Shown here one piece after another: positions 131-14,392 of a stretch of DNA of 64,000 nucleotides. The notes beneath the pieces were generated by a model. It had not been told where the DNA came from. It searched no databases and was given only the letters and a program-made list of their open reading frames with translations. Each line of letters opens with the position of its first letter. The stretch's first letter is position 1. Source of the DNA: Bacteriovorax sp. Seq25_V (GTDB lineage Bacteria > Bdellovibrionota > Bacteriovoracia > Bacteriovoracales > Bacteriovoracaceae); NCBI RefSeq assembly GCF_000447795.1, contig NZ_AUNI01000016.1, positions 1 to 64,000 of the forward strand, read 5' to 3'. The position numbers were made by a program, and so were the translations under genes.

Positions 131-1270
131 CTAGAGGAAACGATATGATAGACCAAACATCACACGTGGCCCAGAAAGAGAAAACTCGTCAGTTACCACC
201 TCAGTCCCCTCTTCGACATCAAATGAAGAAGCTCCTTGATAGTAATCAAGCTTTGCGATAAAGCCAAACTCTTGATTCATCAAGTACTTTGTCCCAAGAC
301 CAACAGAAATAAAAGTTCCACTTCCTTCAAGAGTCCCAGAAGTATTACTTGAAGAGGACGTGCTTACGTTATCTTGGACTTCAAGTGATACAGTTGAAAT
401 ACCAAAGTTCGCATCAGTAAAGAACATAAAAGAATTCGTTACAAATGGACCTTTACCAAAGTAATAACTAATACCGCCACCCATATCAGAGATTGATGTG
501 ATATTGTTGACACCTGTTCCAGCAGATGAGTTCGTCATTGAGTAATGAGCTTTAATAGAGATATTTTTAAAGAATGAAGTTGCTTCAGGGAAGTATTTTT
601 CCATACCAATTGAAAAGTTCATACTTGAACTTTGTGCATCATAATCACCAGATTGGTTACTGTACGTTCCGGCAAGAGAGCTTACACTCAAAAGTGAATA
701 GACTTCGAGACCATGTGAAGATCTCCCGGCCCTTGCAAGTGGAGATTTTCCAACTGGAATATCTTTAATAGAAGTGTTATCTTCAGACATTTCCATATCA
801 CCATCTTTCATCAAGGCACTGACTTCGTCAGAGTCTGATCCCGAGCTAGCCACTTTAGAAGTTGTTATTTTATATCCGGCATTTATATCATTTGGCTCGC
901 CAATTTCTGAGTCTCCAGAGTAGAGGCCACGGATACTTTTTGTTTTGTCGTCAGTAAGTTTTACTGCGGATGAAATTTTAAGATTAATTACATTATTTTT
1001 GACAATTTCGTCAGGATGGATCAAGCGGTAGACGGCCCAGATTGAACGAGAGGGAGAAGCTTTTACAACAACTCCACGAGCAATCACTCCTTTTGTCAAA
1101 AAGAACTTTGCGTGATCTCCAACGACAAGTCCATCTTCGAGTCCTCTGTTTACAAGTAAAGTTTTCTTCGAAGATGAAACTTCTAGTACTCGAAGAGTGA
1201 GTTTCTCGTCTATTTCCAAGGCGTTCGTTGCTGTAGAGAATAGTAGTGATAAAAATAGTAAATACTTCAT
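131..1270 (-). CDS. Secreted outer-membrane beta-barrel protein, unknown function
   Basis: 379 residues. A signal peptide (MKYLLFLSLLFSTATNA) is followed by a compact beta-rich domain of about 80 residues with the pattern KTLLVNRGLEDGLVVGD, a polar linker rich in Ser/Asp/Glu (about 100-190), and a C-terminal half of alternating aromatic/polar beta strands ending in Phe-Leu, as in outer-membrane barrels. The start at 1270 has AGGA upstream. It follows the 521-codon gene at 1286 by 15 bp, so the two are probably co-transcribed. The N-terminal domain is clearly related to that of the upstream protein, so the pair are paralogues in design. No enzymatic motif is seen. The GL.VGD pattern recalls domains in envelope proteins such as FlgT, but this is only a resemblance. 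Confidence 0.75.
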   Translation of the reverse strand: MKYLLFLSLLFSTATNALEIDEKLTLRVLEVSSSKKTLLVNRGLEDGLVVGDHAKFFLTKGVIARGVVVKASPSRSIWAVYRLIHPDEIVKNNVINLKISSAVKLTDDKTKSIRGLYSGDSEIGEPNDINAGYKITTSKVASSGSDSDEVSALMKDGDMEMSEDNTSIKDIPVGKSPLARAGRSSHGLEVYSLLSVSSLAGTYSNQSGDYDAQSSSMNFSIGMEKYFPEATSFFKNISIKAHYSMTNSSAGTGVNNITSISDMGGGISYYFGKGPFVTNSFMFFTDANFGISTVSLEVQDNVSTSSSSNTSGTLEGSGTFISVGLGTKYLMNQEFGFIAKLDYYQGASSFDVEEGTEVVTDEFSLSGPRVMFGLSYRFL

Positions 1271-1285
1271 AAAAAATCCTATCTT

Positions 1286-2812
1286 TTAAAAGAAAAAACT
1301 TAATCCAATATCTGCTTTTACATTATTAATTGTTGTGCTGCTTGAAATTTCATCATCAAGAGATGATATTGCCTGAAGCTTTGTCGTTTCAACAGAGACT
1401 TTAAAGTTAAAACCAAAGCCAAGGCTTGAATATAATTCGTAATCACGAGCAGCCGGTGCGCGATATTTCGCTCCAAAGTGAAGAGATGGAAGGGCCAAGA
1501 CTTCATACTCATAATCTTTTGTAAGGTTAATAGAAGTCATATCACCATTACCTCTTTTGATTCCTGCTCCGACGTACATTGAGACACGATTTCTTGAATG
1601 TGGGTAATTGTAGAAATAGTAATTTAAATGGCCAGCAAGTGCACCGTAAGTTACGCGACCATTGATTCCTCCGACATCAACATTGAGTGTTCCTTGTTCA
1701 ATCAGCATATCAATACTTAAGCGAGAAAAACTTTCGCTGGCGCGAACAAGGTGAAGTTCGTAGGCTAGGCCAAGAGTAAAACCATTGCTTTGGTGAGATG
1801 GGTCTTCATTTGTATAATTTGAGGTAAGATTAGAGCCTAAGAATAATGTAACTTCATTTCCAGACTTAAATAACATTGAATTTTCGCGCCGAACTTTCTC
1901 ACGAGCAATACCAGTTTTAAGAAGGTAAGTTTGAAGTTCTTCCTTTCCCATGTCCGCTGACCAGAGAGGACCATTTTCTTTAATCATGATTTTTGTAGAT
2001 TCAGGGATATCAGATTTTTTTGTGATCTCTTCGTAGTACTCGTTAGACATATTTGCAATTGAACTTGGGGCATCAGAAGGTTTTCTGACACGTACACCGT
2101 TGTAATAAAGCTGTTCATATCCATACTCTTTAGATGTGATGCTTTTAAGTTGAGCTTTATTTTGTTCCTTTGCGATTTTTTGTTTGTATTCGCCTGTCTT
2201 TTGTTTGATATCAATTTCTGCCTCATCAGCACGTAGGAATTTAACTTCCTCATAATCATCATCAAGTAATATATCTGACTTATTTCTAAGAGAAATTTCT
2301 TTGATATTGAGTCCTACTTTATTATCAGGGTCTTCGAGATCGTAGATGCGAGTTTGCTCGACATCATTTTTCATGACAAGATCTTGTGGCAACTTACTAA
2401 CTTGAGACTTTGTCAGTGCCTGTTTAGCTTTTGCATTTTCAAAAGATTTTACTTTGTAACTAGGGGTAACACCTTCACGGCCAGCGATAGTTTCACGTCG
2501 AAGATTGAGAGAGTATTTTTGTCCCTCAACAAAATTCTCCTTGTCTGCATCAGGAAAGTGCCAGTAAGAAAAGCTTGGAAAAACTTTCAAAACCTTCCCA
2601 GACGAAACCTTTTCAAACTTAGGAACCTCGAGACTACCGCCAATTTTTGCAATCTCAGCTGTATCATCGACAACGAGACCACCAAGGCTACCGATGTTAA
2701 GCTTAACCGTCTTACCGGAGTCGCTTTTGCCCTGCAATATGACCTCACGGGCCGCAGAAACAGAAATTGCTAAAAAAAGAGTCAAAATTGTCGTTTTTAT
2801 TATAATTTTCAT
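1286..2812 (-). CDS. Secreted protein with N-terminal interface domain and C-terminal barrel
   Basis: About 508 residues from the ATG at 2812, which directly begins a good signal peptide (MKIIIKTTILTLFLAISVSA). An upstream TTG at 2851 would put 13 extra residues before it and is less likely. The N-terminal domain (about 22-110) has the pattern KTVKLNIGSLGGLVVDD then GKVLKVFPSFSYW, matching the downstream protein at 131-1270 (KTLLVNRGLEDGLVVGD ... PSRSIW). A long charged middle region follows, then a beta-strand-rich C-terminus ending in Phe-Phe-Phe. It is probably anchored in the outer membrane with the N-terminal part in the periplasm. No known function. First gene of a two-gene leftward operon. 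Confidence 0.75.
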   Translation of the reverse strand: MKIIIKTTILTLFLAISVSAAREVILQGKSDSGKTVKLNIGSLGGLVVDDTAEIAKIGGSLEVPKFEKVSSGKVLKVFPSFSYWHFPDADKENFVEGQKYSLNLRRETIAGREGVTPSYKVKSFENAKAKQALTKSQVSKLPQDLVMKNDVEQTRIYDLEDPDNKVGLNIKEISLRNKSDILLDDDYEEVKFLRADEAEIDIKQKTGEYKQKIAKEQNKAQLKSITSKEYGYEQLYYNGVRVRKPSDAPSSIANMSNEYYEEITKKSDIPESTKIMIKENGPLWSADMGKEELQTYLLKTGIAREKVRRENSMLFKSGNEVTLFLGSNLTSNYTNEDPSHQSNGFTLGLAYELHLVRASESFSRLSIDMLIEQGTLNVDVGGINGRVTYGALAGHLNYYFYNYPHSRNRVSMYVGAGIKRGNGDMTSINLTKDYEYEVLALPSLHFGAKYRAPAARDYELYSSLGFGFNFKVSVETTKLQAISSLDDEISSSTTINNVKADIGLSFFF

Positions 2813-2926
2813 CTTATTTATAAGGATAACAAATGGAAGTATTTCAATCAATGTGGTAACCTTTTATCTATCTTAATATTACCTTGCACTATGTTAAAAA
2901 ATAGAGTTTAAATTTGGAGTGAAAAC

Positions 2927-4144: not shown

Positions 4145-6091
4145 TTAAGAAACTTTTCTTTGTAATACCTGATCGACCATATCGCTACCGACTCCAAAGA
4201 AATGGATGGCCTTATTATGTGCATGGTATAGTCTTTCTTCAAATTCAGAAAGTTCCATATTAAATATTGCAGGAATTTCATAAGGGCCAAGTCCTTCATT
4301 AAGTAGCGACTCAGTATAAAAGTAGAAATAAAGCTCTTCTATGTCGCCATTTTCGTAGAGAGATTTATCTTCAACCATTTCATTATTCAGTTCGATACCA
4401 AAATAGAAATCATCATCAATCTCGCGATCGATCAATGGCATGATGCGAGTTCGTTTATAGTTTAAAGTTTTTAAGTCTTGCCCCATAGTAATTAATCGAT
4501 CAATCGCAATTTTTAACTCACTGATATTTCCTGGCCAGTCATAATTCATGAAGTGTGTACAAACGTCGGCACCAAGTTTTTTTGGAGATAATCCCTGCTG
4601 AGTACAAATTTGAATGACAAAGAATTTTGCAAGGGGAATAATATCCTCACGTCTCTCTTTTAATGGAGGAATGCGAACTTCCTTCTGTGCAAAGAATTGA
4701 ATCAAAGGTTGATATGTTTCATTGAAATGAGAGAGTAGGGCCCTCGATTCTGTTGTTGTTGCAAGAAAACGAATATCTTGCCTGATTTTAATCTTATTAA
4801 AAATATACTCTCCTAATTGATAATTTAAGAAATTAATATCTTTAAATACAATTGTCCCACCACTATAAAGCTCAAGAAGCCCTGTGTGCGAATGATTAGA
4901 ATCAAGAATCTTATCGACGTCAGCAAAAGTCTCGATATCATGACAATTGATATGGCCAATTCCATACTCTGATCTTTCACTACTTTTATGTATATTTACC
5001 GCCATTAACTTTTTACCAACACCATACTCACCAGAGATGAGAATACGATCATCATTTCTTGCACATTCAAGAATAAATGAATTTAAATATTGATTATCAT
5101 CACTAGGTCCAATCAAAAGATTTTTACTAAGCTTTGACATATACTTTTTAGATAACAGCGCGATTGTTTCATCTTCTTCTGTCGAAAGAGTTGTCCCAAC
5201 GACATTTGAAAAGATTGAAACTTCAAAAACACATTGATCAGTGAATGCATCGTTAAAAGATTTATTCGCAAATTCAACAGCACCTATAATACTTCCCGAC
5301 TTATCAATTACGGGATAAAGGATGAAGTTCTTGATATCTTTGTCATAAAGTGCAAATTGAAGGTTATAAAATGGATCTCTAACACTTTTGGCCGTTTTTT
5401 GCATACAGACAGTTTCAGTATCACGAAGTGTTGCCATAGATCCAACCACCGGTAGCAAAGTCTCCATCACTTTACCTGTACTGAAGTCAAAAATACTCAC
5501 ATCATTCATACCATTTTCGAAAATGTAGAACGTAAAAATTTCTGCCTCAATACTTCGCTTAACTTCATTTGCAAAGATTTCAATAATCTTATTAGATTTA
5601 ATATGTGCCTGAAATAACTTAAATAGATCAAACAAAATTGTGCTGTTAAAAGACAATCTATTATCATCTTCTAATTGTAAAGAATCTCGACTTTGAGCAA
5701 CGTCACCTTCATTTTGAATCATGTCCAACATAAGAGCTTTAAGACGACTTAGCGATAGTGAATGGAGATAATATGATATTAACTCATTAGAAAAATCTTC
5801 ATCGATATTGAGGTATTCTAAACCAACAAGATACATTCCACGATGTTCGTAGTAACTACTTGTACGAATAACTCGAGCGTTAACTTCGAACTTTCTTTTC
5901 TTGATGACCAGAGTAAGATCCAGCTGACCTGAAATTTCTTTATCAATGGCAAAAGCACAACCTTGATTTGAAATATTGACTAGCTTGATATGTGAGTTAC
6001 TGTAGTTATAAACTTTGCCTCCACTAAAGGCCGTTATTTCAAAGTCATCATGCTTATCTACTGGAATTCTGTACTGTCTTAGTTTTTTCAA
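4145..6091 (-). CDS. PilZ-GAF-AAA+ protein, degenerate NtrC-type regulator
   Basis: 648 residues. An N-terminal PilZ-like domain (about 1-110), a helical linker, a GAF domain (about 155-300, with YPVIDKSGSIIGAVEFAN), and an AAA+ domain of the sigma-54 activator type (about 320-560) can be seen. Walker A is intact (GEYGVGKK, 354-361). Walker B is altered (GGTIVFKDI, 411-419, where GGTLFLDEI is usual), and the GAFTGA loop needed to contact sigma-54 is absent. The sensor-side motifs RIPPLKERREDI and YDWPGN are kept. The C-terminus (about 595-630) could be a helix-turn-helix. The start is TTG with GAGG upstream. It is divergent from a paralogue of the same layout 94 bp away. Inference: a c-di-GMP- or ligand-responsive regulator that no longer opens sigma-54 promoters. 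Confidence 0.8.
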   Translation of the reverse strand: MKKLRQYRIPVDKHDDFEITAFSGGKVYNYSNSHIKLVNISNQGCAFAIDKEISGQLDLTLVIKKRKFEVNARVIRTSSYYEHRGMYLVGLEYLNIDEDFSNELISYYLHSLSLSRLKALMLDMIQNEGDVAQSRDSLQLEDDNRLSFNSTILFDLFKLFQAHIKSNKIIEIFANEVKRSIEAEIFTFYIFENGMNDVSIFDFSTGKVMETLLPVVGSMATLRDTETVCMQKTAKSVRDPFYNLQFALYDKDIKNFILYPVIDKSGSIIGAVEFANKSFNDAFTDQCVFEVSIFSNVVGTTLSTEEDETIALLSKKYMSKLSKNLLIGPSDDNQYLNSFILECARNDDRILISGEYGVGKKLMAVNIHKSSERSEYGIGHINCHDIETFADVDKILDSNHSHTGLLELYSGGTIVFKDINFLNYQLGEYIFNKIKIRQDIRFLATTTESRALLSHFNETYQPLIQFFAQKEVRIPPLKERREDIIPLAKFFVIQICTQQGLSPKKLGADVCTHFMNYDWPGNISELKIAIDRLITMGQDLKTLNYKRTRIMPLIDREIDDDFYFGIELNNEMVEDKSLYENGDIEELYFYFYTESLLNEGLGPYEIPAIFNMELSEFEERLYHAHNKAIHFFGVGSDMVDQVLQRKVS

Positions 6092-6184
6092 GTGTTTAAC
6101 CTCGTTAATTGCTAATTCCCCTATCGGTTCAAATACACCTAAACTTTAGTCAAGTATTGCCGATAAGTAATAGGTGAGGTTTAA
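6092..6184. promoter_or_regulatory. Shared divergent control region of the two PilZ-GAF-AAA+ genes
   Basis: 93 bp separate the two start codons. The region holds several short inverted repeats: TTTAACCTC (6095-6103) with GAGGTTTAAA (6176-6185), which overlap both ribosome-binding sites, TATCGG (6122) with CCGATA (6160), and CACCTA (6136) with TAGGTG (6171). No clear sigma-70 boxes were identified. The symmetry suggests joint control, but short repeats in AT-rich DNA can arise by chance. Confidence 0.4.
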
Positions 6185-7903
6185 ATGAAAAACAGTCTAC
6201 TTAACTATCAATTTTTTAAGTCATACCGCTTACCCCTTGAGAAAAATGACAAGGTCTACGCAGATATATTCTCAACCACTTTCAACTCAGGTGCTTGCAG
6301 ACAAATAGAAATTGAATCAATTAATCTTTCTGGACTAAACTTCACATCAAAATCTTATTTCCCTCATGGTGAGGATGTTGAGATACAAATCTACACTAAA
6401 AGAATTTTTAATAACTGGGATTTTTCACTTAAAGGAAAAATTGTAAGAAGCTTTATTAGTGAATCTAAAAAAGGCGAAGTTGTCTACGGTGTACTACTTG
6501 AGAGACAGAGCAAAGATAGTGTCCTCAATTACTTTTTGAAAGATTTTCTAAATCATTATTCTGAGACAAAATTAATTAAAAATATACAAATGGCCTGTTC
6601 ACTTTCTCGTACAGTTGGTGCCGGCGAAAGTGTTGAGCTATTTTCACTTTTTAATTCTATCATTCAAGACTTTCAAGAATTGCCCCTTGATAACTTTCTA
6701 CAGGACCTGCAAACATCCTTTCGTTGTGAAAATTATCATCTCTTCTTATACAATCATACAAAGAATAAGCTTGTTTCATACCGAAGCTCAGCAAAAGAGA
6801 ATTTACTAAAGACCGATATGAAAAACAATATCTATATGGTCTACGAAAATAACGTCATTTCAAATTTGTCCCTTGCTGAAAATGATATAAATAGGGAGAA
6901 AACCAAGACACTACTCGCCTATCCTGTTTACAATTTAAAACATAATGTTGTTGGCGTCATAGCCCTAACAAACACAACAAGTGGAAATGCATTTACTGCT
7001 TTTCAAGAGTCGTGCATTAGACTTATTTCACAAATTATTTCTTATCATGTAAAAGATTTTGCGACGAATATTAATTTCGAAATAAATCATAAAGATATAA
7101 AATCAGACCTATTCCTAGGACAAAATAGGACTTCACTTGAGATTAAAAATTCGGCAGACTTGTTAAGAAATATCACAAAGAATGTCTTCATACTTGGAGA
7201 ACAAGGTTCAAGAAAAAACGAACTTGCAAAATATCTCCATGAATCAGGGAAATTTAAATCAGAACAACTTAGATATATTAATTTTGACTCTCCTGATAAA
7301 ATCAATACATTCTTTGAAAGTATTGACGACAATGAGCTATTTGAAAAAGGGACAATCATTATCAATGAGATTGGAAACCTGAATCACTCACAACAGATCA
7401 AGTTATATGACTTCTTGAAAAATTTAAATATGAGAGTCATTAGTCTTTCATCTAAAGAATTATATCATCGAGTAAAAACTGGAGCATTTTCAAAGAAACT
7501 CTACTTCTATATTGCAGATATTTACCTACATATCCCCCCTCTTAGAAATAGGAAAAACGATATACTGGAAATAGCTGATATTATTTTATCTGAAGAGCAA
7601 AATAAGAGAGGACATAAATTAACGGGATTTGATGAACAAGCAACAAGAAATATTCTTGAATATAATTGGCCAGGGAATTTAACTGAACTACGAAATGAAA
7701 TAAAGAAGGCCGTAATTCGATCAAATGGCAAAGAGAGTCCTGTGCTTAATCTTCGAAAACAACAAAGCGACTACAAGGCACAGAAAAACAAACTCTTATT
7801 TAACTTATTGAAATCAATAGTTAAACACTCCGACAAGAGCATTGATTACCAGGCACACACTGAAACGCTCAACTACTATATCCGAGCAAAGAAGTCTGCA
7901 TGA
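6185..7903 (+). CDS. PilZ-GAF-AAA+ protein, strongly degenerate NtrC-type regulator
   Basis: 572 residues with the same domain order as the divergent neighbour: PilZ-like N-terminus (FKSYRLPLEKNDKVYADIF, then a beta barrel to about 115), GAF (about 150-295, YPVYNLKHNVVGVIALTN), and an AAA+ module. The ATPase is further decayed. Walker A reads GEQGSRKN (from about residue 338), losing the second glycine of GxxGxGK. Walker B has Asn for Asp (GTIIINEI, about 388). There is no GAFTGA loop. HIPPLRNRKNDI and YNWPGN are retained. No Fis-type helix-turn-helix is evident at the C-terminus. Inference: unlikely to hydrolyse ATP or to activate sigma-54 promoters alone; it may partner the neighbour. Confidence 0.8.
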   Translation: MKNSLLNYQFFKSYRLPLEKNDKVYADIFSTTFNSGACRQIEIESINLSGLNFTSKSYFPHGEDVEIQIYTKRIFNNWDFSLKGKIVRSFISESKKGEVVYGVLLERQSKDSVLNYFLKDFLNHYSETKLIKNIQMACSLSRTVGAGESVELFSLFNSIIQDFQELPLDNFLQDLQTSFRCENYHLFLYNHTKNKLVSYRSSAKENLLKTDMKNNIYMVYENNVISNLSLAENDINREKTKTLLAYPVYNLKHNVVGVIALTNTTSGNAFTAFQESCIRLISQIISYHVKDFATNINFEINHKDIKSDLFLGQNRTSLEIKNSADLLRNITKNVFILGEQGSRKNELAKYLHESGKFKSEQLRYINFDSPDKINTFFESIDDNELFEKGTIIINEIGNLNHSQQIKLYDFLKNLNMRVISLSSKELYHRVKTGAFSKKLYFYIADIYLHIPPLRNRKNDILEIADIILSEEQNKRGHKLTGFDEQATRNILEYNWPGNLTELRNEIKKAVIRSNGKESPVLNLRKQQSDYKAQKNKLLFNLLKSIVKHSDKSIDYQAHTETLNYYIRAKKSA

Positions 7904-8013: not shown

Positions 8014-8841
8014 ATGACATCACTTTTTAACTACGCTTACTTAAGTGTATCCTTTGAAAGAGAAACAAGAACTTGCAACGTAAAAATTCTTAACTCCGCA
8101 GGTTTCAAACCACAAGTCTTAGCCGCTGAATTAGAAAAGTTTTTTGACTGGCTCACCTCTCGAGTTGAGATCTACTCAGTCGTAATCGAAACGCAATTCA
8201 GTGATCTCGAATTATTAAGTAAGGACCTTCTTAAAGAATTAACAGAAGTTGAAGTTTATAATTATCTCAAAACTCTTCAAAGAGTATCTTATGGACAATT
8301 AGTTCTACCACAAACAATCACATGGAATGTCGAAGGTGTCTTTGATCAGTGTGCATTCGAGCTAATGGCGGGAGCTGACTTTAAATTTATTTCACAAAAC
8401 TTTAAAGTATCTTTCGACTCATTAACAAAAGGAATTTGCTCATTCAATGGATGTGCTATCAACTCACAGCTGACAAGTTCAAATTACTATAAAAAAGTGG
8501 TAATGAGTTCAAGTGAGTTAAACTCTACAGAGTTAATTGAAAGTGGCCTTGTATCTTTTATTTTCAATGAAATAAAGTTTAGATCACATATCAACGCAAT
8601 AAAGTCGCAATCGCCAATCACTAGAATCCAATTCAAGAGATCAATCAATGATTCAATCATCAAGGAGATGGATGAGATTATGGCCAGTGAGTTGAGTTTC
8701 TCTAAGGCGGCACTAGCTATTGGAGACTGGAAGAACTGGGCTTATGATCAAGAATTTCACAACCCAAGAGAAGTAGGACGAAGCTTAAAGTCGATACCAA
8801 CAATGGCCGACTCAAAAAAAGCTCCAGCAATGGCAAATTAA
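8014..8841 (+). CDS. Divergent crotonase-fold (enoyl-CoA hydratase/isomerase-like) protein
   Basis: 275 residues. The core pattern ELMAGADFKFISQNFKVSF and the following SLTKGI match the helix and strand after the oxyanion hole in enoyl-CoA hydratases (ELALACDFRIA...F..PE..LG). LIESGLVSFIF matches the A.GLV..V segment. The usual glycine-rich oxyanion motif (GxxxGGG) is replaced by VEGVFDQCA, and no catalytic Glu pair is evident, so CoA-thioester chemistry is uncertain. The start has AAGGAAGG upstream. Soluble, no signal peptide. It converges on the mevalonate operon, with no direct pathway link visible. Confidence 0.65.
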   Translation: MTSLFNYAYLSVSFERETRTCNVKILNSAGFKPQVLAAELEKFFDWLTSRVEIYSVVIETQFSDLELLSKDLLKELTEVEVYNYLKTLQRVSYGQLVLPQTITWNVEGVFDQCAFELMAGADFKFISQNFKVSFDSLTKGICSFNGCAINSQLTSSNYYKKVVMSSSELNSTELIESGLVSFIFNEIKFRSHINAIKSQSPITRIQFKRSINDSIIKEMDEIMASELSFSKAALAIGDWKNWAYDQEFHNPREVGRSLKSIPTMADSKKAPAMAN

Positions 8842-8863: not shown

Positions 8864-8892
8864 AACTGCTCTTTTGAAATAAGAGAGCAGTT
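8864..8892. terminator. Hairpin between convergent genes
   Basis: AACTGCTCT (8864-8872) and its exact complement (8884-8892) form a 9-bp stem with an 11-nt loop. The right arm overlaps the stop codon of the leftward mevalonate kinase gene. U-tracts on both sides are poor, so this is probably a shared 3'-end structure, with terminator function inferred. Confidence 0.5.
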
Positions 8893-9805
8893 AGAAATAA
8901 AATAGTGGTCTAACCTCTGCCGAGCAGAAATCTTCACTTAGTTTCGAAATATCACGAGTAATTCCAAGTAGGAATCCTCCCCCACCTGCTCCACATAGCT
9001 TTAAGTGGTAATTTCCAGTTTTTAAACCAACTTCCCACAGTTCTTGAAAAAGATTTGGAATCATTGGCCTAAAATGCTCAAATTGAAAGTTCGATAGCTC
9101 TTCCATTGCGGTATAAAGCTCTTCCGTATTTCCATTTAAAAAGTATTCGATACAACGATTTGATATCGGACTAAGTACGCGGTCACAAAGATAAGCAAAG
9201 TCTTTAGAAGAGCATTTTTCAAGGAATAGATTCACAAGAGGTTCTGTTCTTCGCGTACGCCCAGTATTTAAAAGAAAAATTGCACCAGGACCATTTTCAT
9301 ATTTAGGGATTTCAACTTTTGATAGGCTACCAGAGTCTCCAATGAGAATTGCAGAATTAAGATAACTAATAACAGGATCGATTCCAGAGCTTGAGCCGTG
9401 AAAATGTGATTCCATTTTACTAAAGCAGTCTTTTAAAAATTTGATATCTTTTTTTTGCTCATCACTAATCTTTGCATAGCGATCAAATACGGTCGCACAA
9501 AGGGCACCAGAGCTTCCAACACCATATCCAGGAGGGATTGAAGAGTCAAAAATTAAACCACCCGAAATATCAAAACTAAAAGACTTATCATCAAATTCAA
9601 ATCCAAGCTCATCTTTTTCAATAAGTCTTTTCATATACTTTGAAAAGGCCTGCAGTTCGGGATCAATTGAACGATTTTTATCTTTTTGGAAAATAAGGTG
9701 TCCATCAAATAATGCATATGGCAGAGCAAGAGCATTGGACTTTCTAATAACCGAATATTCGCCAAAAAGTAGAACCTTGGCGCCAAAAGTTCTCTTGTTA
9801 AGCAT
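8891..9805 (-). CDS. Mevalonate kinase (GHMP kinase family)
   Basis: About 304 residues from ATG 9805, chosen because GGAG lies just upstream and the GHMP N-terminal motif FGAKVLLFGEYSVI follows directly. The longer frame to 9883 would run deep into mvaD. ATP-binding motif 2 is IPPGYGVGSSGAL and motif 3 is LCGAGGGGFLLG. The LFGEYSVI start is typical of mevalonate kinases (ATP + mevalonate to 5-phosphomevalonate). It overlaps the mvaD stop by 8 bp and is the last gene of the mevalonate operon. Which of the two operon kinases acts on mevalonate and which on phosphomevalonate is inferred from motif similarity. Confidence 0.85.
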   Translation of the reverse strand: MLNKRTFGAKVLLFGEYSVIRKSNALALPYALFDGHLIFQKDKNRSIDPELQAFSKYMKRLIEKDELGFEFDDKSFSFDISGGLIFDSSIPPGYGVGSSGALCATVFDRYAKISDEQKKDIKFLKDCFSKMESHFHGSSSGIDPVISYLNSAILIGDSGSLSKVEIPKYENGPGAIFLLNTGRTRRTEPLVNLFLEKCSSKDFAYLCDRVLSPISNRCIEYFLNGNTEELYTAMEELSNFQFEHFRPMIPNLFQELWEVGLKTGNYHLKLCGAGGGGFLLGITRDISKLSEDFCSAEVRPLFYF

Positions 9806-10874
9806 TGAGGCTCCTACTTCCCTCACCCATCTTGTCATGAAGAATAAATTCATTCTCACATAAAGGCTGAATCGACTTTTCAAGGAATGAGCGAATTTCC
9901 TCTACATTCTCATTTAAATAAAGAATGTGGACGTTTGGTCCAGCATCAAGAGTGAAGCAAATATTATGACCTGTCTCGGCCCTAAACTTTCTAATTCGAG
10001 AAATGGCCTCGAGAGTATTAGGCTCCATTAAAATAAACGAAGGAGATGAATTCATCATTAGACCATGTAGTTCAAGCGCTTCACTTTCAACGATCTCAGC
10101 AAACTTATCAAATTCGCCATCCCTAAGTGCTTTTAGAAGCATTTGAAGATTATTTCTGGCATTTGCAAATCTCACTTCTGCAAATGGATGCGTCTGCATT
10201 AGAGCATGCCCGGCCCTTGAAGAAACAACTTTCTCAGATTTTGATACAATCGCGATTGAGTCATGAATTCCTTCAAACTTTGGATGAAAATCTAAATAAG
10301 AAATTCCATAATCATCACTCGATTTAGATAGCCCCTCAGCTTTTCCCCATACCGACATTTTTGGAAACAACGAGCGACAAGCGCTCCCCGAGCCAAGCCT
10401 CGCAACATAAGATGCCTTACTTAGGTAATACTCATCCTCAAAAAGTTTTAGCGATAAAAGCTTCTCAATTTCCACAAGCGCAAGTCCTAGCGCACTCATA
10501 CTTGATGCGGAAGAAGCAATTCCAGAAGAGTGTGGAAAAGTATTTAGTGAGTCTATTGTGAAATGATAATTCACAAGAAATGGAAAGAGAGGTGTTATTT
10601 GCTCAAAAAAAACAGCTATCTTCTCCTTGAATTTCTCGTTCGGAGCCCCTTCAAAACTAAAATCAAAATCAATTCCTGAGGACGACTTCTTTGCAAACTG
10701 AATCGTTGTTCTTGTGTGTGCATCGTCGAGAGTAATACTAATTGAAGGATTACATGGTAATTGATTTCCATGCTTGCCCCAATATTTTACGAGAGCAATA
10801 TTAGATGGAGAGATAACACTTACCTCTCCATTTAAAACATCTTTTTTTAAATCAAAATTTTTATTAGTGAACAT
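9798..10874 (-). CDS. mvaD: Diphosphomevalonate decarboxylase
   Basis: About 358 residues from ATG 10874; a longer upstream frame to 10934 lies inside the preceding gene. It catalyses ATP-dependent decarboxylation of mevalonate 5-diphosphate to isopentenyl diphosphate. Signature segments are SNIALVKYWGKHGNQLPCNPS near the N-terminus, the GHMP loop FPHSSGIASSASSMSALGLAL, SGSACRSLFPKMSVW, and LDAGPNVHILYL with the conserved Asp. It overlaps the upstream kinase gene by 11 bp and the downstream kinase by 8 bp, so all three are probably translationally coupled. Confidence 0.95.
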   Translation of the reverse strand: MFTNKNFDLKKDVLNGEVSVISPSNIALVKYWGKHGNQLPCNPSISITLDDAHTRTTIQFAKKSSSGIDFDFSFEGAPNEKFKEKIAVFFEQITPLFPFLVNYHFTIDSLNTFPHSSGIASSASSMSALGLALVEIEKLLSLKLFEDEYYLSKASYVARLGSGSACRSLFPKMSVWGKAEGLSKSSDDYGISYLDFHPKFEGIHDSIAIVSKSEKVVSSRAGHALMQTHPFAEVRFANARNNLQMLLKALRDGEFDKFAEIVESEALELHGLMMNSSPSFILMEPNTLEAISRIRKFRAETGHNICFTLDAGPNVHILYLNENVEEIRSFLEKSIQPLCENEFILHDKMGEGSRSLNA

Positions 10875-11892
10875 TATGTGAAGTACCGATTGTATTTTCA
10901 GAATTAAAAACAAGCTCAGAATAAGGTATAACAACTTTTAAGCCATGAACTGAAAAGTAGTTTTCAACATACTCTTTCGTCTCTTTAGTACTTGCTAGGA
11001 TGAAATCTCCACCCCAAGCTCCGAGAGACTTGACCTCTCCAAGGAAATCTTTGAACAGACGTTCTTTTATCGGTGTAAGACCTAAGTTCTTTCCTACTAT
11101 TTCCTCGTGCGCGTTAATTAAGAAATTAAATTCATCAACAGTTTTTGAAATAGAGATAGAATCTGTTAAATCACTAACTGCCTTGATAATTTCAGGAGCA
11201 TGAGGTTTTCTTGAATTATAATACTCAATCGCAGAGCGAGAGTTTTGTTTCTTATCGAGATAAATAAAATATAAATTCTCTTTAAATTCTGGATCAAAAA
11301 GAACTGGTGACCAATTAGGACCTTCGTTCGTCTTCTGATAGAATATTGGCCCGTCACTTTGAGCACAAGCAATATCATACCCAGAACCACCCAGAGTATT
11401 AAATAGCAGCTCAAATGGCGATACGTACGCCCATGTAGCAATATTGTGAATCAGTGTCGAGCTCGAGCCAAGCCCCCAATTAAGTGGGAAGCCAAGTTGT
11501 GTTTCAACGTGAACATCAAGATCTTCTCTTAAAAAGTGTGCATTTTGTTTTCTCACACTTTGAAGAATATTTTGAAGAACAAGAACCTCAGGTGTCACTT
11601 CTCCTTCACTTACAATATTAAATTGCCAAAATTCAAATGTTGCTTCAAACCAAAGTTTTCCTGATGGATCATAAGATTTCCAGTAAAGTCTTGGTCTAAA
11701 TGATGATGAATATTTTACTGAAAGAGACTGACCAACTTGCGTAGGTAAGCCAAGGGCCTTAGCTCCATCTAGCACAAAGTACTCTCCACTGAGTAATACT
11801 TTCCCGTGCCCATAGAAATATTGATCTCTCTCAGGGATCTCAATTCTATTTGTTCCAGGTATATATTTTAAAATATGTTCGCCTTGTTGCAT
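10864..11892 (-). CDS. GYDIA-type GHMP kinase, probable phosphomevalonate kinase
   Basis: 342 residues. The N-terminus has GHGKVLLSGEYFVLDGAKALGLP, the GHMP motif 2 is LNWGLGSSSTLIHN, and the diagnostic GSGYDIACAQSDGPIFY follows. This identifies the GYDIA subgroup of GHMP kinases, known to me mainly from Bacteroidetes mevalonate loci. Here it sits between HMG-CoA reductase and diphosphomevalonate decarboxylase, so the phosphomevalonate kinase step is the natural assignment, by elimination. GGGAAG lies upstream of ATG 11892. Its stop overlaps mvaD. Confidence 0.85.
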   Translation of the reverse strand: MQQGEHILKYIPGTNRIEIPERDQYFYGHGKVLLSGEYFVLDGAKALGLPTQVGQSLSVKYSSSFRPRLYWKSYDPSGKLWFEATFEFWQFNIVSEGEVTPEVLVLQNILQSVRKQNAHFLREDLDVHVETQLGFPLNWGLGSSSTLIHNIATWAYVSPFELLFNTLGGSGYDIACAQSDGPIFYQKTNEGPNWSPVLFDPEFKENLYFIYLDKKQNSRSAIEYYNSRKPHAPEIIKAVSDLTDSISISKTVDEFNFLINAHEEIVGKNLGLTPIKERLFKDFLGEVKSLGAWGGDFILASTKETKEYVENYFSVHGLKVVIPYSELVFNSENTIGTSHNVH

Positions 11893-11908
11893 TTTATCTT
11901 CCCTAATT

Positions 11909-13231
11909 TTAGTGTAGACCTCTAAGTTTTTCCAAAACTTCTCTTACCGATTTAAAAGACACTACTTTTGATTCAAATTCTTTACGTACGATTTCTTTTT
12001 CTACTTCTGTTGCTTCAAGTTGATTAAGAATATTCATCAGGTGCATCTTCATGTGACCTTTTTGAATACCGCTTGTAACGAGACTTCTTAAAGCTGCAAA
12101 GTTCTGAGCAAGACCAACACTTGCACAAATCATCATTAGCTCTTTTGCACTTGGACCACCAAGCATTTGAAGAGATAATTTTGAAAGAGGGTGTAGCGAA
12201 GTTAATCCGCCGACAGTACCAAGAGAAAGAGGTATTTCAATCTCAAATCTAAACTGATTATTATTGACTGAACACTTCGTTAAACTACGATACTGTCCGT
12301 CACGAGCAGCATAGGCATGCCCACAAGCTTCAATAGCTCTGAAGTCATTACCTGTCGCGAGAACAACACCATCGATACCATTGAAGATACCTTTATTATG
12401 AGTAGTAGCACGATATGGATCTATTGTTGCGATTCTAACTGCACGATGAAATTTAGAGATAAACTCATCGGCACTCATTCCGTTACTTGGATCGTTTAAT
12501 TCTTCAACTCCACATTCAACCCACGCCTTAACAAGACAGTCAGGAGTATAATTAGAAAGAATACACATTACTATTTGAACATCTCTTTCATCATCCGAGA
12601 ATCCATAATAATTAGGAATTGTCGATTTAAGAAACTGCCCAAGCGACTCAAGTACAGAGTTAATGAAGTTTGCACCCATCGCATCGCAAGTTTCAAAAGA
12701 AACTTTTAATTGATAGTAACCAGGTTCTTGCTCTGTTAGATTGATTAATTCAATGTCTTTTAGTCCACCTCCACGAGCTTCCATATTCATTGTTAATGGA
12801 GCAACATGTGCGAACATTTTTTCTTTGTTAGCATTGAAGAACTTTATTAGATTTTCAGTTTCACCATTCCAAATGAAGTGAACCTGTCCAAGCTTAATTG
12901 TTGAAACAACTTGAGCGTGAAAGCCTCCACGCGTAGACCAAAACTTTGCAGCTTTTGAAAGAGCAGCGACAACAGAACTTTCTTCAATAACCATTGGGAT
13001 TATTTTTACTTCGTCGTTTAAAACAAAGTTAGGAACAAGTCCGTATGGAAAGTAGAAATTTGAGATTGTATTTTCACTAAACTCATCAAAGATTTGTTGG
13101 GCATCAAGATCCTTGTGCCAAAACTCTTTTAATTGACTCTTAACTCTCTGACTTCCTTGAAAACATGTATCAACAAGATAATCAATTTTTTCGAGTTTAT
13201 TTAACTTTGAAAAACCTGAAACCATTTCCAA
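11909..13231 (-). CDS. mvaA: Hydroxymethylglutaryl-CoA reductase, class II type
   Basis: About 440 residues; reduces HMG-CoA to mevalonate. Visible family motifs are SGFSKLNKLEK at the N-terminus, MEARGGGLKD with the catalytic Glu, DAMGANFIN, THNKGIFNGIDGVVLATGNDFRA with catalytic Lys and Asp, GTVGGLTSLHP, and QKGHMKMHL with the catalytic His. The start is either TTG 13231 (six bases after AAGGAG, chosen) or ATG 13225, with an unusually long spacing of 12. The gene begins a few bases after the fni stop. Class II enzymes are often degradative, but the surrounding genes argue for a biosynthetic role here. Confidence 0.95.
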   Translation of the reverse strand: MEMVSGFSKLNKLEKIDYLVDTCFQGSQRVKSQLKEFWHKDLDAQQIFDEFSENTISNFYFPYGLVPNFVLNDEVKIIPMVIEESSVVAALSKAAKFWSTRGGFHAQVVSTIKLGQVHFIWNGETENLIKFFNANKEKMFAHVAPLTMNMEARGGGLKDIELINLTEQEPGYYQLKVSFETCDAMGANFINSVLESLGQFLKSTIPNYYGFSDDERDVQIVMCILSNYTPDCLVKAWVECGVEELNDPSNGMSADEFISKFHRAVRIATIDPYRATTHNKGIFNGIDGVVLATGNDFRAIEACGHAYAARDGQYRSLTKCSVNNNQFRFEIEIPLSLGTVGGLTSLHPLSKLSLQMLGGPSAKELMMICASVGLAQNFAALRSLVTSGIQKGHMKMHLMNILNQLEATEVEKEIVRKEFESKVVSFKSVREVLEKLRGLH

Positions 13232-13234
13232 GCT

Positions 13235-14254
13235 CTACTCCTTCACAGAAAGATATCGAGATGCGACTTCAAGCCCTCTAATCATTTCCGCAGTAAATTT
13301 TCTAAGTTTATCTATACCTTCGTTTGCTGAATTCAAAAACGGTGAGGCCATACCAAAGACAGCATTCCCTTTCGAAAGGGAAATTAAATAATAGCCGTCT
13401 AAATAAGAGCGTATCCCACCAGAGATAATGAAGTTCTTGCAAAGAACTTTATCACCTAATCTATCAATTATTTCGTTCGAGATTTCTACCATTTCTAGCG
13501 CAGTATGTCCAACAAAGCTTAGTTCTTCATGAGTGGATAAGTCACTTGAATTACGTTGTTTTTCCATAAGTGCGAAATTTGTCCCACCAAAAGCAGCAAA
13601 CTCAATAGCAGCAAGAGGCAAACACATTAGGGACTCGAGAGATTTTGGACCTAATCCTTGACCCACTTCCTTAATGATCACAGGAATCTGCGTAAGTTCA
13701 AGAAGCTTTTTCACTGTATCAATTGGTGCTTGCTCAATGATATCACCTTCTGGCTGAAACCATTCTTGTAAAGGATTAATATGAACTATTACTCCGTCGG
13801 CACTTAGGGAGGTCACAAGTTTTTCGATAGCAGCTATATCATTATTTTTTAAAAGCTGTTCAACTTGAGCGATCCCAAGATTTGCATAAAAAGGAAGAGC
13901 GTCAGTCAGACGAGGTCTGAGATTAAAATCTTCAAAGTATGTTTGATCTGTTAGAAGCTGACGACAAGAGCCTAGCCCCATACCTAGTCCGAACTCCGAA
14001 GCAACTGTTGCTAAATTTTCATTAATATATCTCGCATCACCAGTACCACCAGTCATTGAACTTATCCAAATCGGGGCACGCATTTCTTTTCCAAGAAACT
14101 TAGAGGCCTTAAAATTTTTAAAAAATGAGAAATTTGAAAGCATTGGCTCATAATTAAAACGTTCATCAACCATCAGTTCTGATGTTTGGGAACTATTAGT
14201 CAGCGCTAGATGCTGATGCTTTCTATTACTTGAGTTTTCTGTTGTTTCGACCAT
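13235..14254 (-). CDS. fni: Isopentenyl-diphosphate delta-isomerase, type 2
   Basis: About 339 residues from ATG 14254; a TTG at 14269 is an alternative, and neither has a clear Shine-Dalgarno. This FMN- and NADPH-dependent enzyme interconverts IPP and DMAPP. The N-terminal RKHQHL, the FMN-binding SSMTGGT, MGLGSCRQLL, VIIKEVGQG, and AAFGGTNFA fit type 2 isomerase. First gene of the mevalonate operon (fni-mvaA-GYDIA kinase-mvaD-mvk). HMG-CoA synthase is not in this window. Confidence 0.95.
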   Translation of the reverse strand: MVETTENSSNRKHQHLALTNSSQTSELMVDERFNYEPMLSNFSFFKNFKASKFLGKEMRAPIWISSMTGGTGDARYINENLATVASEFGLGMGLGSCRQLLTDQTYFEDFNLRPRLTDALPFYANLGIAQVEQLLKNNDIAAIEKLVTSLSADGVIVHINPLQEWFQPEGDIIEQAPIDTVKKLLELTQIPVIIKEVGQGLGPKSLESLMCLPLAAIEFAAFGGTNFALMEKQRNSSDLSTHEELSFVGHTALEMVEISNEIIDRLGDKVLCKNFIISGGIRSYLDGYYLISLSKGNAVFGMASPFLNSANEGIDKLRKFTAEMIRGLEVASRYLSVKE

Positions 14255-14392
14255 GGCACAAAGTAGCAAAATTCTAATAATTTTACTAGTTTTTACTCGT
14301 CTTAGTATTTTTTATAAGACTTAGACGATCAACAATTTCAAGCACTTAAGTGACATAATAAAGAAACATTAAATTATTCCGATTGAACAAGT
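14255..14392. promoter_or_regulatory. Divergent control region between the mevalonate operon and a lipase gene
   Basis: 138 bp, AT-rich. It contains a perfect 10-bp palindrome CACTTAAGTG at 14343-14352 and a short hairpin GTCTTA (14299-14304) / TAAGAC (14315-14320). These are candidate operator elements for either gene. No convincing -35/-10 pair was found on either strand. Confidence 0.35.

Follow-up and report, generated by a model that had tools for sequence, protein, structure and literature searches.

Catalytically dead enhancer-binding-protein homologues encoded by a divergent gene pair of Bacteriovorax: putative short-lived regulators or scaffolds for the prey-hunting stage

Introduction

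What role may be served by two proteins that carry the AAA+ fold of the sigma-54 activators without its ATPase and sigma-54-contact parts? The question is raised by a pair of genes, referred to here as A and B, in the 64,000 nucleotides of contig NZ_AUNI01000016.1 of Bacteriovorax sp. Seq25_V that were analysed as a whole and are hereafter called the window. An initial annotation of this DNA placed two divergent paralogous ORFs for PilZ/GAF/sigma-54-type AAA+ proteins at 4145-7903, and both ORFs were verified there, in divergent orientation and separated by an intergenic gap of 93 bp:

4145-6091, minus strand: gene A, 648 aa, TTG start; product PilZ, degenerate GAF, pseudo AAA+, lid (WPGN) and C-terminal region, with the tail ...LQRKVS
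6185-7903, plus strand: gene B, 572 aa, ATG start; product PilZ, degenerate GAF, pseudo AAA+ and lid (WPGN), HTH absent, with the tail ...RAKKSA

A third paralogue, C (G000:C14, L082, 6244-8202, minus strand), comprises about 652 aa arranged as PilZ-GAF-pseudoAAA+-HTH, and keeps a Fis-type HTH (PF02954, 39.2 bits) and a GAF domain with the pattern NKxnFx3DE. Its gene lies away from the A-B locus, where it diverges from speD-speE and precedes cdaA-cdaR-glmM.

Results

The assignment of A and B to the sigma-54 activator clade was based on both sequence profiles and structure comparison. Sigma54_activat/Sigma54_activ_2 and AAA_lid_14 exceed the Pfam cut-offs in the two proteins, and Foldseek matched their AAA+ domain and lid to the same clade (E about 1e-16 and 4e-14). 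In the AlphaFold models the AAA+ domain alone is confident (pLDDT about 90 in A and in B), the PilZ and GAF parts being of low confidence and built on shallow alignments, into which the loci of the genome search did not enter. The top PDB match of A was FlrC, with NtrX, NtrC1 and VpsR also among the best, the closest structures to B were DmpR, VpsR and NtrC1, and PspF was also among the matches. With regard to the sensor domains, PilZ surpassed the Pfam cut-off in A only (26.7 bits), and in the Pfam scan of both proteins the PilZ of B and the GAF domains of A and B stayed under their cut-offs. The PilZ-GAF profile of paralogue C, in turn, matches B orthologues across both domains (e.g. E 6e-53, positions 6-323), in agreement with the annotated retention of PilZ and GAF; the WPGN motif is likewise present in A and B, as had been read from the sequence.

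In order to establish which parts of the AAA+ domain were lost, an alignment of 70 rows (37 C, 17 A and 16 B) was compared with 19 control enhancer-binding proteins. The GAFTGA (L1) loop, reported initially as missing from A and B, is deleted whole, not merely altered, leaving a gap in 70/70 rows at a position where the loop is present in the 19 controls. The two arginines of the arginine fingers (FREDLYYR) are found in 0/70 A/B/C rows, compared with 19/19 and 18/19 controls. The Walker B Asp is retained in 6/37 C, 0/17 A and 2/16 B proteins and the Walker A Lys in 37/37, 15/17 and 13/16, respectively, and the sensor II Arg is missing in most members. In the window, the altered Walker B described for the pair was recovered as GGTIVFKDI (KD) in A and GTIIINEIG (NE) in B, and the broken Walker A ascribed to one partner is that of B (GEQGSRKN, in which the third Gly is gone), that of A being intact (GEYGVGKK). 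In the window and in some relatives the motifs agree with a division of labor in which one partner binds ATP and the other does not, but 9/16 B orthologues keep the third Walker A Gly.

The initial annotation had regarded orthologues with intact GAFTGA and Walker motifs as a possible sign of recent decay or sequencing error. No ortholog with an intact GAFTGA was found (70/70 without it), although intact Walker A does occur among A and B orthologues, and both explanations were rejected, the losses being common to 70 proteins from many genera. Since the same genome encodes sigma-54 and activators with an intact GAFTGA, the loss of activator parts is specific. Furthermore, because C is also without GAFTGA and both arginine fingers and in most cases has no Walker B Asp, the dead ATPase is ancestral to this lineage-specific family; the pair is thus not decayed, as had been supposed, but shares its losses with a family-wide paralogue that bears an HTH. 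Judged by sequence, A and B are homologues of enhancer-binding proteins with a dead ATPase (pseudo-bEBPs) and, as the initial annotation held, not sigma-54 activators, the L1 loop and the arginine fingers being found in 0/70 rows and the Walker B Asp being mostly gone.

Without sigma-54 contacts, A and B might still be transcription regulators of the VpsR/TyrR type, GAFTGA-less and DNA-binding, that act with sigma-70 or FliA polymerase. The clear Fis-type HTH of C and the presence of VpsR among the closest solved structures for both A and B speak for this reading, as does the fact that the GAFTGA-less homologues TyrR, DhaR and HupR are sigma-70 dependent (PMC3162934). By analogy, a sigma-70-type action would be the main rival for C and one rival for A and B. 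Nevertheless, neither HTH_8 nor any C-terminal Fis-type HTH was detected in A or B, in the window and in the relatives scanned; the C-terminal region of A holds at most a remnant HTH and is shorter in g16 genomes, and B stops soon after the lid. DNA binding is unlikely for B, since it has no HTH, and uncertain for A, and for the pair we consider this regulator role somewhat unlikely.

A second property proposed for the pair was responsiveness to c-di-GMP, which the PilZ residues call into question. The RxxxR motif occurs in 0/17 A, 0/16 B and 2/39 C proteins, versus 5 of the 7 further PilZ proteins that the genome encodes, and [DN]xSxxG occurs in 17/17 A, 39/39 C and 1/16 B proteins. In the window, A has NISNQG (NxSxxG) without RxxxR, and B has lost both. 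Binding of c-di-GMP by A and B is accordingly doubtful, since RxxxR is absent from both and B also lacks [DN]xSxxG.

The conserved divergent pairs in relatives, for which the initial annotation had suggested a search, were found. Among 129 genomes of the same family, plus genus g35, the A-B pair occurs in 17 genomes of 5 genera, and in every one the genes are adjacent and divergent. The PilZ-GAF profile of C matches most of 129 Bacteriovoracaceae genomes; outside the family, in a search of 369 genomes of the phylum, it gave only partial matches in the GAF range, all from a single further family, of which six genomes were hit. Most genomes carry C without the pair. The tree has a separate branch for A, for B and for C (support 100/99 or better), and A and B are, from their sequences, related to C by duplication. 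A concatenated species tree grouped g1, g3 and g16 with full support and did not place g35 and g44 firmly, and is compatible both with the pair having been gained once, in one clade, and with several events.

The proteins of the pair evolve very fast, with 44% (A) and 50% (B) identity between the window and G050, versus 79% for C. Together with a stepwise loss of motifs (Walker A of B is lost only in some lineages, g1 and g35, and the lid of B is missing in g35), this rate might suggest that the pair is in decay and retains almost no function. We regard this as highly improbable, given that the reading frames of A and B are intact, without internal stops, in all 17 genomes, that both genes are under purifying selection (dN 0.11-0.38, far below a mostly saturated dS) and that promoters and tails, described below, are conserved. 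The same identities bear on another alternative, in which A and B would be negative or tuning partners of C, HTH-less subunits that co-assemble with it through the AAA+/GAF domains and tune its DNA binding. In favor of this are the architecture and promoter type that A and B share with C, the loss of the HTH from B and, save for a remnant at most, from A, and the Walker A that A retains. However, the low conservation of A and B relative to C argues against a strictly conserved interface with it, and C occurs without the pair in most genomes, and this role therefore seems to us unlikely.

As for the relation between A and B themselves, their distance matrices showed a partial correlation of 0.68 after correction for species distance (11 species), compared with -0.07 for A and F2, the gene downstream of B:

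8014-8841, plus strand: F2, crotonase-like gene, a family-wide and fast-evolving neighbor

This co-variation fits a partnership, but is support and not proof, since the ordinary neighbors mvk-pmk reach 0.79 in the same partial distance correlation. A and B are probably partners. F2 was considered as a third partner and rejected on present evidence, as it is found family-wide, including genomes without the pair, lies beside trxB in pair-less genera and does not co-vary with A or B; it is probably outside the A-B module. It adjoins the trxB/mevalonate genes across the family and its evolutionary rate is about that of A and B; the copy in the window seems degenerate, falling below the Pfam ECH cut-off versus 86.7 bits for the g16 copy. 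Because trxB and F2 are direct neighbors in several genomes of genera without the pair, the pair was either inserted into the trxB-F2 gap or lost from it. The surroundings also comprise a mevalonate pathway cluster (8891-14269, minus strand) that adjoins the pair and is conserved family-wide, and F1a and F1b (131-2851, minus strand), adjacent paralogues, predicted to be secreted, that are kept beside trxB across genera.

The 93-bp gap contains two sigma-28 (FliA)-type promoters, placed back-to-back with a 9-bp overlap in the region of the -35 boxes:

6122-6148, minus strand: FliA-type promoter for A, TAAAG-N16-CCGATA
6140-6166, plus strand: FliA-type promoter for B, TAAACTTT-N11-GCCGATAA

Both agree with the sigma-28 consensus and with the FliA motif known from Bdellovibrio, TTAAG-N16-CCGATA, which is carried there by 92/140 promoters of the attack phase (PMC3627812). 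The present genome encodes FliA (278.8 bits). The strict pattern has 16 sites in this genome, the promoters of A and B among them, against 3 for a reversed control pattern, and C likewise has a strict site (C14:16243-16269). A looser score over the whole window was not informative (13 sites at a score of at least 16, versus a shuffled mean of 11). When sites scoring at least 13 under one fixed score were counted up to 120 bp upstream, they were present for A in 14/17 cases, for B in 9/16 and for C in 23/38, versus 8/398 for other genes (Fisher p 5e-18, 3e-10 and 8e-22, respectively, values that overstate the case because the species are related). The two promoters abut or overlap at 12 of 16 loci. 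Of the two, the promoter on the B side is the poorer fit to the Bdellovibrio motif, and in g35 genomes the A side fits poorly. The promoter evidence is one of conservation across loci and not of any single site. By analogy with Bdellovibrio, we infer that A, B and C would belong to the hunting-stage (attack-phase) program.

The proteins also share their last residues. A C-terminal tail ending in [AVS][ASG]-COOH is found in 68/72 A/B/C proteins (17/17 A, 13/16 B and 38/39 C), versus 5/224 other genes, and in 0/29 bEBPs of other organisms. It is often preceded by K, R or L, as in KKAS, KKVS, KLAS and EKKAA. In E. coli, the C-terminal endings LAA, AA and RRKKAI are recognition signals of the ClpXP protease (PMC5143411), and the organism's own tmRNA tag is ADSYDSVALAA, ending in ALAA; the -AS and -VS tails differ from the exact ssrA ending. 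This resemblance to ssrA and MuA ends suggests that the tail may act as a degron for ClpXP-type proteolysis. Three further PilZ proteins of the genome (L002, L003 and L004) end in LALAA, DKKAA and NKIAA, so a degron-like tail may mark a wider set of signalling proteins. Three more genes behind strict FliA-type promoters (L240, L257 and L264; 76, 260 and 121 aa) end in AA. A general association of the tail with the FliA regulon is only weak, since of about 19 other first genes 3 have it (Fisher p 0.018).

Discussion

With the ATPase and sigma-54-contact parts lost, with promoters of the swimming stage and with a tail that resembles a protease tag, A and B have the appearance of regulators or scaffolds that are short-lived and serve the prey-hunting stage. 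In the full explanation that we favor, to which we give a probability of roughly 0.45, A and B, with C, would be non-catalytic signalling proteins of the attack phase, A and B probably as partners, and would be proteolysed when that phase is over. FliA polymerase would make the proteins in the motile attack phase, and A and B would then assemble into a heteromer, possibly including C, in which A would bind ATP without hydrolysis. The PilZ and GAF domains may sense some internal small molecule, and the complex would regulate through protein-protein contacts, not through remodelling of the sigma-54 polymerase; C, like VpsR and TyrR, would act by binding DNA in concert with other holoenzymes. Once the cell exits the attack phase, ClpXP would clear the proteins. 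A narrower version, which we find improbable taken as a whole, would make A and B pseudo-AAA+ partners in an obligate hetero-oligomer that does not bind DNA and in which one subunit binds ATP while the other does not. The back-to-back FliA promoters would yield the two in fixed proportion during the hunting stage only, and the ssrA-like tails would lead to their destruction at the switch to growth; a transcription activator would thus have evolved into a stage-specific signalling scaffold.

Homologues of this kind have precedents. VpsR of Vibrio cholerae, TyrR, DhaR and HupR share with A, B and C the sigma-54-type AAA+ fold and the lack of a usable GAFTGA loop, and VpsR also has an altered Walker B (GGTLLLNDI in our alignment). 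These regulators keep the HTH and carry sensor domains other than PilZ and GAF. A and B, in contrast, combine PilZ and GAF with a wholly deleted L1 loop and lost arginine fingers, and have no detectable HTH, divergent FliA-type promoters and a degron-like tail. The flagellar proteins FleQ and FlrC have an AAA+ fold as in A and a link to motility, but differ from A and B by an intact ATPase machinery, an HTH and the absence of PilZ; in FleQ, c-di-GMP binds to the AAA+ part. Protein C resembles A and B in domain order, deletions, promoter type and tail, and departs from them in its GAF pattern, its Fis-type HTH, its slow evolution and its separate locus. Enhancer-binding-protein homologues without GAFTGA, such as VpsR, are thus already known; the back-to-back FliA-type promoters and the ssrA/MuA-like tail are unreported features that hint at a function, and no PilZ-bearing GAFTGA-less enhancer-binding protein was described in the literature searched.

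It is an open question how predatory bacteria pass from hunting to growth on their prey and back. A, B and C form a lineage-specific family, made up of the family-wide regulator C and the derived A-B pair, for which there is evidence at the promoter level of membership in the hunting stage and evidence in the sequence that would point to timed removal. They also add a case of an ATPase family that has turned into non-catalytic signalling proteins.
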